From: Anaerolineae bacterium
Lineage (GTDB): Bacteria; Chloroflexota; Anaerolineae; Aggregatilineales; J027
Reading direction: 5' to 3'
Assembly: GCA_019913005.1 (NCBI GenBank)
Contig: JAIOHL010000252.1
Span: forward strand, 186,001 to 250,000
DNA: 64,000 nucleotides
Position 1 is the first letter of the stretch, and every line of letters starts with the position of its first letter. Below the pieces are notes generated by a model. That model saw only the letters and a program-made list of their open reading frames with translations, was not told the origin of the DNA and did not search any database. Positions 9,919 to 14,558 of this stretch are shown piece after piece. Made by a program: the position numbers and the translations under genes.

Positions 9919-10751
9919 CCCCAACACAAGCACTCAATCTTGTAGATGCCCTGCAAAAAACTATTCCTATCGCGGAAGAAGCCGGGGCGCTGCTGCGAGA
10001 ACATTTTGCCCTTCCGCGTAAGGCTCTCAACAAAAGCTCGCTGATTGATTTGGTCACGGAAGCCGATAAACAAAGTGAAGCCTTGATTGTGAGCAAATTG
10101 CGCGAATTTTTCCCGACCCACCAAATTGTTGGGGAGGAAGGCGGCGCGTATGCCCATGAAGGCACTAACGGCGATTATCGCTGGTTTGTGGATCCCCTTG
10201 ACGGCACAACCAATTTTGCACACGGCCTGCCCATTTTTTCCGTCTCAATGGCGCTGACCGGGCCGGATGGTCGCACGATTCTCGCCGTCGTTTATGATCC
10301 CATCCGACAAGAAACATTCGCAGCGGCAAAGGGACATGGGGCGACCTTGAATGGCGAACCCTTGCAAGTCTCTGAAACCGAAAGCCTCGGCGCGTCGTTG
10401 GTGATTAGCGGTTTTCCCTATGACAAATGGACGACAGACGAAAATAATGTGGACAATTGGGGCAACTTTGTCGTGCGGACGCAAGGCGAACGGCGGCTTG
10501 GCTCGGCGGCATTGGATTTGTGTTATGTCGCAGCGGGGCGGGCGGATGGCTATTGGGAAGGCAAACTGCACCAATGGGATATGATGGCGGGGGTGCTGCT
10601 GGTTTTGGAGGCAGGCGGACGAGTGACCGATAATCAGGGTGGCATGGATTTTTATGGCGTCAAACGGCCTTTTATTGTCGCCACCAATGGCCTCATCCAC
10701 GACCAGATGTTAGGCGTGATTCGGTTGGGCAAAGATGCACCACGTCCGTAA
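9915..10751 (+). CDS. Inositol monophosphatase family protein
   Basis: Mg-dependent sugar/inositol phosphate phosphatase, 278 residues, the usual length. Family metal-binding residues are present: D51, GEEGG (E74), the signature WFVDPLDGTTNF with D93 and D96, and WDMMAG near residue 224. The substrate could be inositol 1-phosphate, histidinol phosphate or a related sugar phosphate; the sequence alone does not decide. The start ATG overlaps the upstream stop (ATGA). Its last 36 bases (10716-10751) recur at 11227, where they were copied by the tandem duplication that created the second small membrane-protein gene. Confidence 0.93.
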   Translation: MTPTQALNLVDALQKTIPIAEEAGALLREHFALPRKALNKSSLIDLVTEADKQSEALIVSKLREFFPTHQIVGEEGGAYAHEGTNGDYRWFVDPLDGTTNFAHGLPIFSVSMALTGPDGRTILAVVYDPIRQETFAAAKGHGATLNGEPLQVSETESLGASLVISGFPYDKWTTDENNVDNWGNFVVRTQGERRLGSAALDLCYVAAGRADGYWEGKLHQWDMMAGVLLVLEAGGRVTDNQGGMDFYGVKRPFIVATNGLIHDQMLGVIRLGKDAPRP

Positions 10752-11214
10752 ATTCGTGAAATGGGTCAGGCTATTTTTCGCGCCGAGCATCCCTTATACT
10801 TTGGTGGTTGCCGAGTCACCGGAAAATTGCCTGCGGAAAATTGAACGCAAATTTCCCATGCTCTCTATCGAAATTACTTCTGACGAACATGGCAATTCAC
10901 ATTTTAGAATACACGTTGCAAGAACCGACCCTGAGACCCTTCCCGCCATGATTGTTACGGGTAAAGTTGAAACCCTCGATACTCAAAAAACGATTGTATC
11001 GGGGGCTATACATTCATGGGTTTTGGGATTTTTTATGTTTATGCTTGTGGCTGTTTGCTCAATAACATTGGTTGTTGGGATCGCCAATGGTGATTTAGTA
11101 GCTATAGGATTTGGGATAATCGGTGTTCTCTTTGGCGTTTATGGCAACTTCATGTATCGAAAGCACGCATATCTCTGGCTAACCAGCACACTCCAATATG
11201 TTTTGGAGTCTTAG
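10735..11214 (+). CDS. Small membrane protein, duplicated copy A
   Basis: Unrecognised 159-residue protein. The N-terminal soluble half (FFAPSIPYTLVVAES, ENCLRKIERK) is followed by two hydrophobic segments near residues 93-115 and 120-138. The ATG lies inside the 3' end of the phosphatase gene (17-base overlap). It is a paralogue of the next gene (11246-11761). The two share HxVRK, FFAPSIP, LVVAES, CLRKI and a C-terminal LES, and both open with the same copied phosphatase tail. Function unknown; no homologue comes to mind. Confidence 0.65.
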   Translation: MHHVRKFVKWVRLFFAPSIPYTLVVAESPENCLRKIERKFPMLSIEITSDEHGNSHFRIHVARTDPETLPAMIVTGKVETLDTQKTIVSGAIHSWVLGFFMFMLVAVCSITLVVGIANGDLVAIGFGIIGVLFGVYGNFMYRKHAYLWLTSTLQYVLES

Positions 11215-11245: not shown

Positions 11246-11761
11246 ATGCACCGCGTCCGTAAATCCCTGCAATGGATTAGGCAATTTTTCGCGCCAAGCA
11301 TCCCCTTTAGTCTGGTGGTTGCCGAGTCACTGGAAGATTGCCTGCGGAAAATTCAAAGCGGGTTGCCTCTGAAATCGAAAGAAGCCTATTCCCAGCGTTT
11401 CTTGGAACAGAATCAGTTTTTCAGAATTACTACCGACAAGTATGGCGACCCGCAATTTGAGGTACTTGTTAGAAGGGTTGACCCCGGAATCATTGGGTCA
11501 ATGGTAATTACGGGCAGATTCTCGCCACTTGATTCTCAAAGAACGCTCGTATTTGGGGAGGTGCGGTCATGGGCCTTTTGTTTTCTAATTTTTATGCTTG
11601 TTGTGGTCAGTCTCTTTATGTTTGCGGCGCTATGTAATAACAGTCTAATTGGCTTATTGATTGGATTGATTATAGTGCCAGTGGTTGTTTACTTTAATCT
11701 GGCTAGACAAAAAGCAACCTCATCCCTAATAGATGCTCTCAGGCAAACCTTAGAATCCTAA
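11246..11761 (+). CDS. Small membrane protein, duplicated copy B
   Basis: Unrecognised 171-residue paralogue of the preceding gene. It has the same N-terminal blocks (FFAPSIPFSLVVAES, CLRKIQ), a 14-15 residue insertion after the first block, then two hydrophobic segments (about 103-125 and 127-150). It ends in a soluble tail finishing in LES, like copy A. Spacing from copy A is 31 bases. Conserved reading frame despite substantial divergence argues that both copies are expressed. It converges with the LOG-family gene, with only four bases between the ends. Confidence 0.65.
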   Translation: MHRVRKSLQWIRQFFAPSIPFSLVVAESLEDCLRKIQSGLPLKSKEAYSQRFLEQNQFFRITTDKYGDPQFEVLVRRVDPGIIGSMVITGRFSPLDSQRTLVFGEVRSWAFCFLIFMLVVVSLFMFAALCNNSLIGLLIGLIIVPVVVYFNLARQKATSSLIDALRQTLES

Positions 11762-11765
11762 ACCC

Positions 11766-12359
11766 TTATGGCTTGGCCTCCCCGACGGGCAAAATAGATT
11801 GGATCGGTTGGAAATTTAAGATTAAGTCCAAGACTTCTTCCGGTGTCGTGCCGACTTTAAAAAGATTGCGGTTGTTGGCACGTATAAACCCCTCGGTGAC
11901 ACACTGGTCAACAAACGCGATGAGGGCGTCATAATAGCCTGCCATGTTGAACAGCACGATGGGCTTAGGATGAATCCCCAACTGCGACCATGTGACAATC
12001 TCAAAAAATTCATCGAATGTGCCATAACCACCCGGCAGCGCGATAAACGCATCGGCACGATCCGCCATTAACGCTTTGCGCTCGTGCATGGAATCCACCA
12101 CAATAGATTCGGTTAATCCCGTGTGGCGGCGCTCGACGGTGTTCAGCGAATGGGGAATAATCCCAACGACCTGCCCCTCATTTTCTAAGACGGCATTGGC
12201 GATAACCCCCATTAACCCGATCATGCCCCCGCCGTATACTAACCCTATCCCCCTCGACGCCATCAATTTACCGAGTGCCACCGCGTTTTCGGCATAGGCG
12301 GAATTTGTCCCCACATTTGAGCCACAATACACACAGATATTTTTAACCGGATAAGCCAT
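11766..12359 (-). CDS. LOG family / TIGR00730 Rossmann-fold protein
   Basis: Predicted nucleotide 5'-monophosphate phosphoribohydrolase-like protein (cytokinin-activating LOG family; lysine-decarboxylase-like fold in older annotation). The 197 residues from the ATG at 12359 (GGGAGG seven bases upstream) are normal for the family; the longer open frame upstream is not needed. Key motifs are VYCGSNVG, VYGGGMIGLMG, MHERKALM and the catalytic PGGYGTFDEFFE. The bacterial substrate is probably AMP or a related nucleotide (inference). It is divergent from the sigma-factor gene, with about 158 bp between them. Confidence 0.92.
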   Translation of the reverse strand: MAYPVKNICVYCGSNVGTNSAYAENAVALGKLMASRGIGLVYGGGMIGLMGVIANAVLENEGQVVGIIPHSLNTVERRHTGLTESIVVDSMHERKALMADRADAFIALPGGYGTFDEFFEIVTWSQLGIHPKPIVLFNMAGYYDALIAFVDQCVTEGFIRANNRNLFKVGTTPEEVLDLILNFQPIQSILPVGEAKP

Positions 12360-12517
12360 GCCAAAGCCTCCCAATGGCGAGATGAATAGAGGTACATTAT
12401 ACACCTGTTCGATAATCGCAGCGGATGATTTAACCAATATTTTGCTTACGATGCAGTATTTTTTGGATAAACCCGTTTTAAGACATAGAACAGTCAACCT
12501 TGCGGGGCAACTTCTAG

Positions 12518-13084
12518 GTGGATGCAGAACACGAACGGCACTTAATTGAGCAAGCCCAACAGAACACCGACCCGGCAGCGATACAGGCCTTGTATCGGCA
12601 GTATTTCCCGCGTGTGTTTGCCTATGTCGCCTATCGGGTGGGGCGAAAACAGGATACCGAGGATGTGGTATCCGAAATTTTTCTACGAGCGATTGAACAT
12701 CTGGACACCTTTGAATATCGCGGGGAGGGGTCATTGGCGGCGTGGCTGTTCAAAATTGCCCATACCCAAGTCGCCAATTTCCATCGCACCCATGAGCCAC
12801 AATCACCTGTGTCATTAGAGGACTTGCCCGATATTCAATCCAATGCCCTTGCGCCGGACAGCGCCCTGATTCAAAAAGAACTTTTTGCCCGACTACGCCA
12901 CTTGATTACGACGCTTGCCCCGCGCCGCCAAGAGGTGATTACGCTGAAATTCTTTGGTGGACTGCGCAATCAAGAAATCGCCGAATTATTGGGTTTGGAT
13001 GAGCGCACCATCGCCTCGCATTTGAGCCGGGGGTTGGAAGATTTGCAGCGGAGATTTGAGGAAGAGAAGGCCAACCATGAATAA
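12518..13084 (+). CDS. Sigma-70 family (ECF-type) RNA polymerase sigma factor
   Basis: 188-residue ECF-like sigma factor. Region 2 (about 25-95) includes LYRQYFPRVFAYVAYRVG and the DVVSEIFLRAIEHL helix. Region 4 (about 130-180) has LAPRRQEVITLKFFGG and the helix-turn-helix NQEIAELLGLDERTIASHLSR. The start is the GTG at 12518; the ribosome site is weak. The stop overlaps the start of the next gene by eight bases, which is typical of a sigma factor with its membrane-bound regulator. No consensus ECF promoter was recognised upstream. Confidence 0.9.
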   Translation: MDAEHERHLIEQAQQNTDPAAIQALYRQYFPRVFAYVAYRVGRKQDTEDVVSEIFLRAIEHLDTFEYRGEGSLAAWLFKIAHTQVANFHRTHEPQSPVSLEDLPDIQSNALAPDSALIQKELFARLRHLITTLAPRRQEVITLKFFGGLRNQEIAELLGLDERTIASHLSRGLEDLQRRFEEEKANHE

Positions 13085-14558
13085 ACATCAACCGGAATCA
13101 GGCCAAGACATCAAAAAATTGCTTGCCGAGATAACGCCCCAAGCCGATGCCCATTTTCAGGAAACATTGGAGCGGCGGTTGTTGGCGGCGTATCTGCAAA
13201 AAAAGGAGGGAGATAAGGTGAAAGCGAATGGTCATTTGGTCACGTATGCGGATTTTGTGCCTAAGATGGGGGTGAATAATCGTCAGCGCCGATGGACTAT
13301 TTCATTGGCGGCAACACTGATGATGGTGTTTTTTGTGGGTGCTCTAATCTCGTTTGTGGGCGGTTTGCCGGGGCCGTCCCATGAAATACATTATTCAGCT
13401 TTGCAGCAGTTGACCCCAAGCCCTGCGGCAACCCCAACCCCAAATGTTATAGGTAGGGTTCCAGTGGTGGTTGCCAGTATGCGCTTGTCACAATATTCGC
13501 TACTTAGGGCGTCGTCGCTAGAGATTCAGTATAGGCGGGCGGATTTAATGCCGGAGGATGTTTTGTATGAGATTGAACCCTTGATTGGAGCCGTGCTTTT
13601 GGAAACTTCAGCGGAAAATCGGCCCATAACCCGAAGTATGGTAGCCATTCCTCCAAATGAGGATGAGACCCAGCCTGTTTTGGTAACGAATGTTGCCATT
13701 ACATTTGGCACACCTATCACCTCCCACATGCTGACCCTCCAATTCGTTCGCCCCGACCAAGTGCCCGAAAATGTATTTTATGACTCCCCCTTGCGCACCG
13801 AACTTGACGTAAACGCCATAGGGCAAGGTGGATTGCAAGCAATGGAAGATATTCCCAGTGGTACTATCCTGTTGACCTCTCAAGTCGCACAGTTCGGTGT
13901 GGTGTTTACTTCGGATGGGGTGCTTAGGAATACATGGGATGATCTTCACCCAGTTGTCATGACCACCCAAGCGATTCAACGCGGGACGGCCATCACTGAA
14001 GATATGTTGACCACTGTATATTGGCCTAGTGAGCTTGTGACGGACGAGATATATGGCAGAATTGAAGCTGTCGTGGGACAAACTGCCCTGACCGATTTGC
14101 GACCCTATTCTCCCATTCTGACAGATTATTTTGCCCCAGAGTCAGAAGATGAAGGGGGAACAGAAATAGAGGCCGGGCGTGTTGCCGTTGTAGTTCCGAT
14201 TCCTGATGACCACTTCTTCTATGGGTTTCAGGTTGGCGATATGGTCAGTATAACAGCGAGTTTTTTCTACATAGATGCTGATGAAATAAGCATATATCAA
14301 ATAACCCCTGCTCCCGATTTTCTAGAAGGCATTGTTGTGCCTAATGATGTTACTGGAACTTCTCGATTGAGCGTTCAGGAGGTTATTCCTGATGCAAAAA
14401 TCATCGGTTTAAATGCAATGACGGCACCGGACGACAGCACTATGCAAGCTATGGTCTTAGCCGTGACTTCTCAACAGGCGGTAGTTCTAACTTGGCTGCT
14501 GGATTCCCAAATTCCGTTACAATATCGAATCGTGATACCTGTGTCCGAAGGGGATTAA
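13077..14558 (+). CDS. Putative membrane anti-sigma-like protein with CpaB/SAF-type domains
   Basis: 493-residue single-pass protein overlapping the sigma gene. A short cytoplasmic N-terminal part (1-72) is largely helical (HFQETLERRLLAAYL) and sits where an anti-sigma domain would. A membrane segment (75-95) follows, then a Thr/Pro linker. Outside are three repeats (about 128-190, 198-270, 290-360), each with a pattern like PVVxTxxAIxxGTxITxDML, the sort seen in SAF domains of CpaB/RcpC pilus proteins. The C-terminal part (VGDMVSITASF, AVVLTWLLDSQIPLQ) resembles the CpaB RcpC domain. It starts at the ATG at 13077 with GGAAGAGAAGG upstream. Anti-sigma activity is inferred from position only. 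Confidence 0.75.
   Translation: MNKHQPESGQDIKKLLAEITPQADAHFQETLERRLLAAYLQKKEGDKVKANGHLVTYADFVPKMGVNNRQRRWTISLAATLMMVFFVGALISFVGGLPGPSHEIHYSALQQLTPSPAATPTPNVIGRVPVVVASMRLSQYSLLRASSLEIQYRRADLMPEDVLYEIEPLIGAVLLETSAENRPITRSMVAIPPNEDETQPVLVTNVAITFGTPITSHMLTLQFVRPDQVPENVFYDSPLRTELDVNAIGQGGLQAMEDIPSGTILLTSQVAQFGVVFTSDGVLRNTWDDLHPVVMTTQAIQRGTAITEDMLTTVYWPSELVTDEIYGRIEAVVGQTALTDLRPYSPILTDYFAPESEDEGGTEIEAGRVAVVVPIPDDHFFYGFQVGDMVSITASFFYIDADEISIYQITPAPDFLEGIVVPNDVTGTSRLSVQEVIPDAKIIGLNAMTAPDDSTMQAMVLAVTSQQAVVLTWLLDSQIPLQYRIVIPVSEGD

Follow-up and report, generated by a model that had tools for sequence, protein, structure and literature searches.

Why should a sigma factor gene be followed directly by a gene for a membrane protein whose outer part resembles CpaB, a protein of Tad pili? 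We addressed this question for a locus in the window, by which we mean the whole 64,000-nucleotide stretch of an Anaerolineae genome that was analysed; the pair belongs to a group of the Chloroflexota that has been little studied. A sequence-only reading had described the two genes and had proposed that the second might be a surface sensor controlling the first, and both genes lie where that reading placed them. We think it likely that they form an autoregulated unit of an ECF sigma factor and a membrane anti-sigma factor, with a CpaB-derived ectodomain that senses the envelope and with few or no other targets. The first gene and its upstream region comprise the following features.

12452..12480, plus strand: putative autoregulatory ECF promoter, TGCAGTA(TT)-N13-CGTTTTA, ~38 bases ahead of the sigma start codon, a conserved two-block motif upstream of sigma relatives
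12452-12458 and 12474-12480, plus strand: -35-like and -10-like blocks of this promoter
12518..13084, plus strand: ECF sigma factor gene, 188 aa, GTG start, with regions 2 and 4

Pfam assigns the sigma factor both Sigma70_r2 (51.9 bits) and Sigma70_r4_2 (56.1 bits) above cut-off and gives no match to region 3, and ECF membership is defined by regions 2 and 4 without region 3. Its best NCBIfam model is the BldN family, TIGR02952, but we rejected membership in that family because the score of 133.3 bits falls below the equivalog cut-off of 206. The protein shares 86-94% identity with its counterparts in four further genus genomes. A LOG-type (lysine decarboxylase-like) ORF at 11766-12734 on the minus strand runs, as called, antisense across the start of the sigma gene. 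Its true start is probably near 12361, which would leave a divergent intergenic region containing the sigma promoter. Further upstream, at 10735-11214 and 11246-11761, are two adjacent and similar small membrane proteins without a Pfam match, which look like a tandem duplication.

The second gene, which we refer to as the partner, encodes the following parts.

13077..14558, plus strand: membrane anti-sigma-like protein with a CpaB-type ectodomain, 493 aa
13077..13280, plus strand: cytoplasmic segment, residues 1-68, with a motif shared by partners that have unrelated ectodomains
13122-13181, plus strand: motif L16-x4-P21-x5-F27-x3-L31-E32-x2-L35, inside the cytoplasmic segment
13281..13358, plus strand: transmembrane helix, residues 69-94, from hydropathy and an AlphaFold helix at 69-94
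13359..13454, plus strand: Thr/Pro-rich low-confidence linker, residues 95-126, with pLDDT <50 at 96-118
13455..13652, plus strand: SAF domain 1, residues 127-192 (Pfam ChapFlgA 129-192)
13671..13922, plus strand: SAF-like domain 2, residues ~199-282, from high-pLDDT model strands and the third FlgA-C stretch
13944..14141, plus strand: SAF domain 3, residues 290-355 (best Pfam SAF stretch 292-350)
14178..14534, plus strand: RcpC-like C-terminal domain, residues 368-486 (TIGR03177 stretch 290-472; 9gzr)

Translation most likely begins at ATG 13077 rather than at the in-frame upstream TTG 13056. The ATG start gives an 8-bp overlap with the sigma stop (ATGAATAA) that all five species of the genus share. 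The outer part had been read as three SAF-like repeats and an RcpC-like end, and independent methods agree on this fold. Pfam SAF scores 68.1 bits in two stretches (cut-off 21), NCBIfam CpaB (TIGR03177) 88.2 bits (cut-off 71) and NCBIfam FlgA-C 69 bits in three stretches (cut-off 54.65), so that by sequence scores the SAF content is far above chance. An AlphaFold model built from 32 relatives has a mean pLDDT of 77.8, with the SAF blocks mostly at 90-97, and contains three SAF folds (~127-192, 199-282 and 290-355) followed by the RcpC-like part at 368-486. Repeat 2 is the most divergent of the three, and its support comes mainly from this model. Foldseek matched the model to the solved RcpC structure 9gzr (E 5e-10) and to FlgA (E 1.5e-4), and RcpC also ranks first in a profile search of PDB sequences with the partner (E 8e-9). 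In VIA comparisons, the RcpC match covers residues 289-491 (Z 11.3, 169 aligned, rmsd 10.3), SAF domain 1 gives Z 10-12 to FlgA and type III antifreeze proteins, and the FlgA structure 3frn reaches Z 12.5 over 67 residues at rmsd 1.3. The absence of a SAF fold, which would have spoken against the earlier description, is thus ruled out, and the single membrane span it named is found at the predicted helix.

Conservation within the genus is uneven along the partner. The cytoplasmic part is 75-88% conserved. Change is fastest in SAF repeats 1 and 2, and above all in repeat 2, which shows 52-69% identity within the genus, compared with 81-89% for the C-terminal part in the two closest species. Two species of the genus carry an SH3b domain at the position of repeats 1 and 2.

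We surveyed the pair in related genomes, as the sequence-only reading had suggested, and found that it recurs through the order. A close search placed it in three Anaerolineae MAG records (CFX5, CFX10 and DTUCFX7), and close relatives of the sigma factor occur in 38 of the 154 genomes of the order. We read the gene after the sigma factor at 52 loci of the order, most of them with longer flanks. At 50 loci a partner follows, nearly always overlapping or abutting the sigma gene; the two loci without one probably lie at contig ends. In all partners of sufficient length, a membrane span is predicted after a short cytoplasmic stretch. Over their full length, partners from outside the genus mostly share 16-29% identity with the window protein. 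In CFX10, a gene for a retropepsin-like aspartyl protease (Pfam Asp_protease_2; L003:6504-6890, minus strand) immediately follows the pair and is encoded on the other strand. This gene is not listed at the same place in L005 or in the window.

The cytoplasmic segment is the part of the partner that stays the same. A motif, L-x4-P-x5-F-x3-LE-x2-L, remains constant while the ectodomains change completely. Among 42 non-redundant partners, the proline is found in 41/42, the leucines in 39/41 and 41/42, and the phenylalanine in 36/42. The full regular expression matches 34 of the 42 order partners against 0.4 expected from shuffles, shuffled sequences matching at about 1-2%. It also matches 8/11 partners of more distant sigma factors of the class, several of which are only ~110-120 aa long and have a membrane span with no large ectodomain. 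As a control, we examined the partners of other ECF sigma factors in this genome, of which 1/11 has the motif. These counts indicate that the motif tracks the sigma clade and not ECF partners generally. Such behaviour is expected of a sigma-binding element and is what an anti-sigma module would show, in keeping with the earlier view of the N-terminal segment.

Other observations bear on an inhibitory role of the segment. Two models place helices in it, and the predicted helices span residues 10-19 and 25-47. Weak matches to the NCBIfam 'anti-sigma factor' model NF052375, far below its 100-bit cut-off, occur in 13/50 partners and cover the N-terminus and membrane span in the four members with coordinates shown; the window partner does not reach the 0.01 threshold for this model. 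The distances between sigma factors show a correlation of r 0.57 with the distances between N-terminal stretches and of 0.40 with those between ectodomains, against a permutation null of 0 +/- 0.05-0.07, and species history accounts for part of the correlation. The partner is also encoded beside and together with the sigma factor, as an anti-sigma factor would be, by overlap here and by adjacency in nearly all the order loci that we read. Assignment to the class I zinc anti-sigma factors (HxxxCxxC) was rejected since residues 1-72 contain no cysteine. No RsgI family, and hence no RsgI N-terminal domain, appeared among the Pfam or NCBIfam matches. When the N-terminal module was run as a profile against the PDB, no anti-sigma factor came up (best match RecX, E 0.02). 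Taken together, the membrane protein probably holds the sigma factor back.

The ectodomains on this scaffold are varied. Among 50 partners, a SAF match is present in 18, a CpaB score in 21 and RcpC in 8. Other modules include LysM (6), SH3_3 (5), DUF4179 (9) and DUF4367 (3), along with enzyme domains (M23 peptidase in two partners and FGE-sulfatase in one). The SAF/RcpC label changes at least 6 times on the sigma tree and is more clustered than shuffled labels, a pattern compatible with either a single origin of the SAF ectodomain or more than one. Two of the partners (L129, 1143-2534; L130, 1152-3725) end in an M23 peptidoglycan peptidase, and one of these anti-sigma-like proteins also has an FGE-sulfatase/GldK-like domain, so that one polypeptide would combine sensor and enzyme. 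The ectodomain of the L118 partner is 52% identical to a glycosidase-like protein beside the Tad locus of the window's genome; two glycosidase-like secreted proteins adjoin that locus (L164:15061-18443, G000:C252). Elsewhere in the same genome, the gene after an ECF gene at L044 (G000:C13:56997-57515) encodes a single-span protein whose ectodomain is a WD40 propeller, which shows that ectodomain variety extends beyond this sigma clade. We also observed, in several Anaerolineae (L070, L072, L075, L080, L081 and L082), a degV-like gene located immediately or almost immediately after a BldN-like ECF gene.

The region before the sigma genes contains a conserved motif consisting of GCAGTA, 15 or 16 bases, and CGT(T/C)T, with the strict form TGCAGTA-N15/16-CGTTTTA. 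Both blocks are present upstream in 30 of the 52 sigma loci and in none of 50 shuffles, and GCAGTA alone is found at 46 of the 52 loci, where 3.3 would be expected. The effective number of loci is slightly lower than 52, as the five from the genus are nearly duplicates of one another. The window promoter is the sole exact occurrence within the window and in this genome. The strict motif occurs once per genome in all five genus genomes, always before the genome's own sigma gene, and five additional order genomes likewise have a single copy in that position, for a total of ten. It is absent from three other order genomes.

We looked for second copies of the promoter in the five genus genomes and found none with one mismatch. 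Matches with two mismatches were no more numerous than those of a reversed-pattern control and fell within ORFs but for one site, so they were rejected as further promoters. The exception, TGCCGTATTGCCGTTTTTCAATTGTTTTA, lies outside long ORFs, is identical in three genus genomes (L171, L178 and L179) and has no ORF downstream. A relaxed-pattern match common to all five genomes was rejected because it lies inside coding sequence. The relaxed pattern also yields a few singletons, two of them outside ORFs, in G319 and G000 (L205 and L206). From sequence patterns of this kind, the simplest reading would be that the sigma factor regulates itself and has few strong targets besides, or none, although the strict search may miss degenerate target promoters.

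These results suggest a model for the autoregulated sigma/anti-sigma unit. The sigma factor would drive the promoter immediately upstream of its own gene, and the co-translated membrane protein would hold it through the short two-helix cytoplasmic module. The outer part, with its three SAF repeats and RcpC-like end derived from a CpaB-type protein, would sense the state of the cell envelope; we propose envelope sensing because related partners carry wall- or surface-related LysM, SH3b and M23 modules. It weighs against the proposal that CpaB-type SAF domains are not known to bind a ligand. Perturbing the ectodomain would release the sigma factor, by regulated proteolysis or by conformational change, and release would lead to more sigma factor and more ectodomain protein. 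With a single strict promoter in each genome, one of the chief products of the response may be the ectodomain protein, and the pair looks like a self-contained loop for sensing or repair at the cell surface. The motif, the promoter and about 50 natural variants make envelope sensing in Chloroflexota testable.

A narrower version of this model, which we put forward tentatively and consider possible but not probable, is a private loop in which the sole or near-sole target of the sigma factor is its own operon and the mosaic ectodomain is itself the effector. If it were true, the cell would top up an envelope protein upon its loss or engagement, and the scaffold could swap ectodomains freely across the order. 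The single exact promoter in each of ten genomes raises the question of whether some ECF sigma factors only set the level of their own anti-sigma factor or sensor.

The resemblance to CpaB raises the alternative that the unit is coupled to a pilus. Here, the ectodomain would dock into the CpaB alignment ring of the Tad machine or compete for it, and the sigma factor would report pilus assembly or engagement. The ectodomain is homologous to the Tad CpaB of its own genome in both its SAF and RcpC parts (E 2e-18, single comparison), and RcpC is reported to assemble into a periplasmic ring of twelve subunits (PMC12307814). Canonical CpaB is also present in 20 of the 21 genomes that bear the pair, the exception being an 86% complete MAG. 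CpaB-type matches are, however, also common in genomes of the class that have no full-length match to the pair, so co-occurrence says little for or against a functional link. Gene context fails to support the pilus connection raised by the sequence-only reading. The pair has LOG-type and LysE-type genes as window neighbours, and the Tad locus, with a real CpaB, is found on another contig (C252), where we named cpaB, cpaE-like, cpaF, tadB and tadC-like genes from their sequences. Since the promoter has no second copy anywhere in this genome, it has none at the Tad genes, and the LysM, SH3b, M23 and sulfatase-like modules of sister partners have no obvious pilus role. We therefore consider a pilus-coupled switch unlikely. 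The occurrence of CpaB domains outside Tad pili warns against annotating pili by score only, as the window protein itself passes the CpaB cut-off.

A second alternative takes up the remark in the sequence-only reading that SAF domains of other proteins bind sugars such as sialic acid. It supposes that a small sugar or glycan binds to the SAF part of the partner and thereby frees the sigma factor, and we regard it as quite unlikely. The SAF fold does resemble the antifreeze-like domain of sialic acid synthases (Z 9.3-9.7), and sister partners have envelope-binding modules. By both sequence and fold, however, the nearest proteins are RcpC/CpaB and FlgA, whose roles are those of structural components or chaperones. 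The envelope-type modules on the partners would favour envelope sensing over a soluble ligand. It is very improbable that the partner is instead an envelope component merely driven by the sigma factor, with a cytoplasmic motif used for something else such as oligomerisation or recruitment: the enzyme domains on some partners and a strict promoter that makes the membrane protein the one clear product would suit this idea, but the motif follows the sigma clade even onto small membrane-anchored partners without a large ectodomain, and the weak NF052375 matches coincide with the same cytoplasmic region.

We compared the proposed unit to known systems. A single-span anti-sigma factor with a sensing ectodomain encoded beside its sigma factor is a standard arrangement (RsgI, RsiV). 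The suggestion that the arrangement was undescribed thus stands only for its outer part, as no open-access paper that we found describes an anti-sigma factor with a SAF or CpaB ectodomain. The flagellar P-ring chaperone FlgA shares the SAF fold, but it lacks the membrane anchor, the cytoplasmic module and a sigma partner. BldN/RsbN of Streptomyces resembles the pair in that BldN is the best family model for the sigma factor and has a membrane anti-sigma partner, and the -10 block of the pair's promoter resembles the CGTT of the BldN promoter. The window sigma factor nevertheless scores below the BldN equivalog threshold, and the PDB sequence search with the N-terminal module gave no match to RsbN.

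CnrY works with CnrX in metal sensing. Like the partner, the class II anti-sigma factor CnrY is a membrane protein with a short two-helix cytoplasmic segment, encoded beside an ECF sigma factor, CnrH (PMC7406223); the likeness is in the partner's two predicted helices, drawn from a model rather than a complex, and not in a sequence match. CpaB/RcpC of Tad pili (TIGR03177, 9gzr) shares the membrane anchor, SAF and RcpC-like domain of the partner. The partner differs in having a 68-residue cytoplasmic module before the helix and three SAF repeats, in being paired with a sigma factor and in lying outside the Tad locus. The Tad CpaB of this genome has no cytoplasmic domain, and the helix stands at the very start of canonical CpaBs in the class.

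SigI/RsgI of Clostridium thermocellum (PMC4711584, PMC12203970) is like the pair in co-encoding a sigma factor, autoregulated in SigI and probably in the pair, with a single-span anti-sigma factor, in having an N-terminal sigma-binding part inside the cell (putative in the pair) and exchangeable modules outside (carbohydrate-related in RsgI), and in building several variants on a common scaffold. Unlike the sigma factor of the pair, SigI lacks region 4 and is not of the ECF type, and its regulons include cellulosome genes (PMC4711584, PMC12203970). RsgI has a different N-terminal domain, and its described ectodomains include none of the SAF/RcpC type. Membrane anti-sigma factors with exchangeable ectodomains are thus known, best in SigI/RsgI (PMC4711584), and the pair would add a pilus-machine fold to the ectodomains able to sit on an ECF anti-sigma factor.
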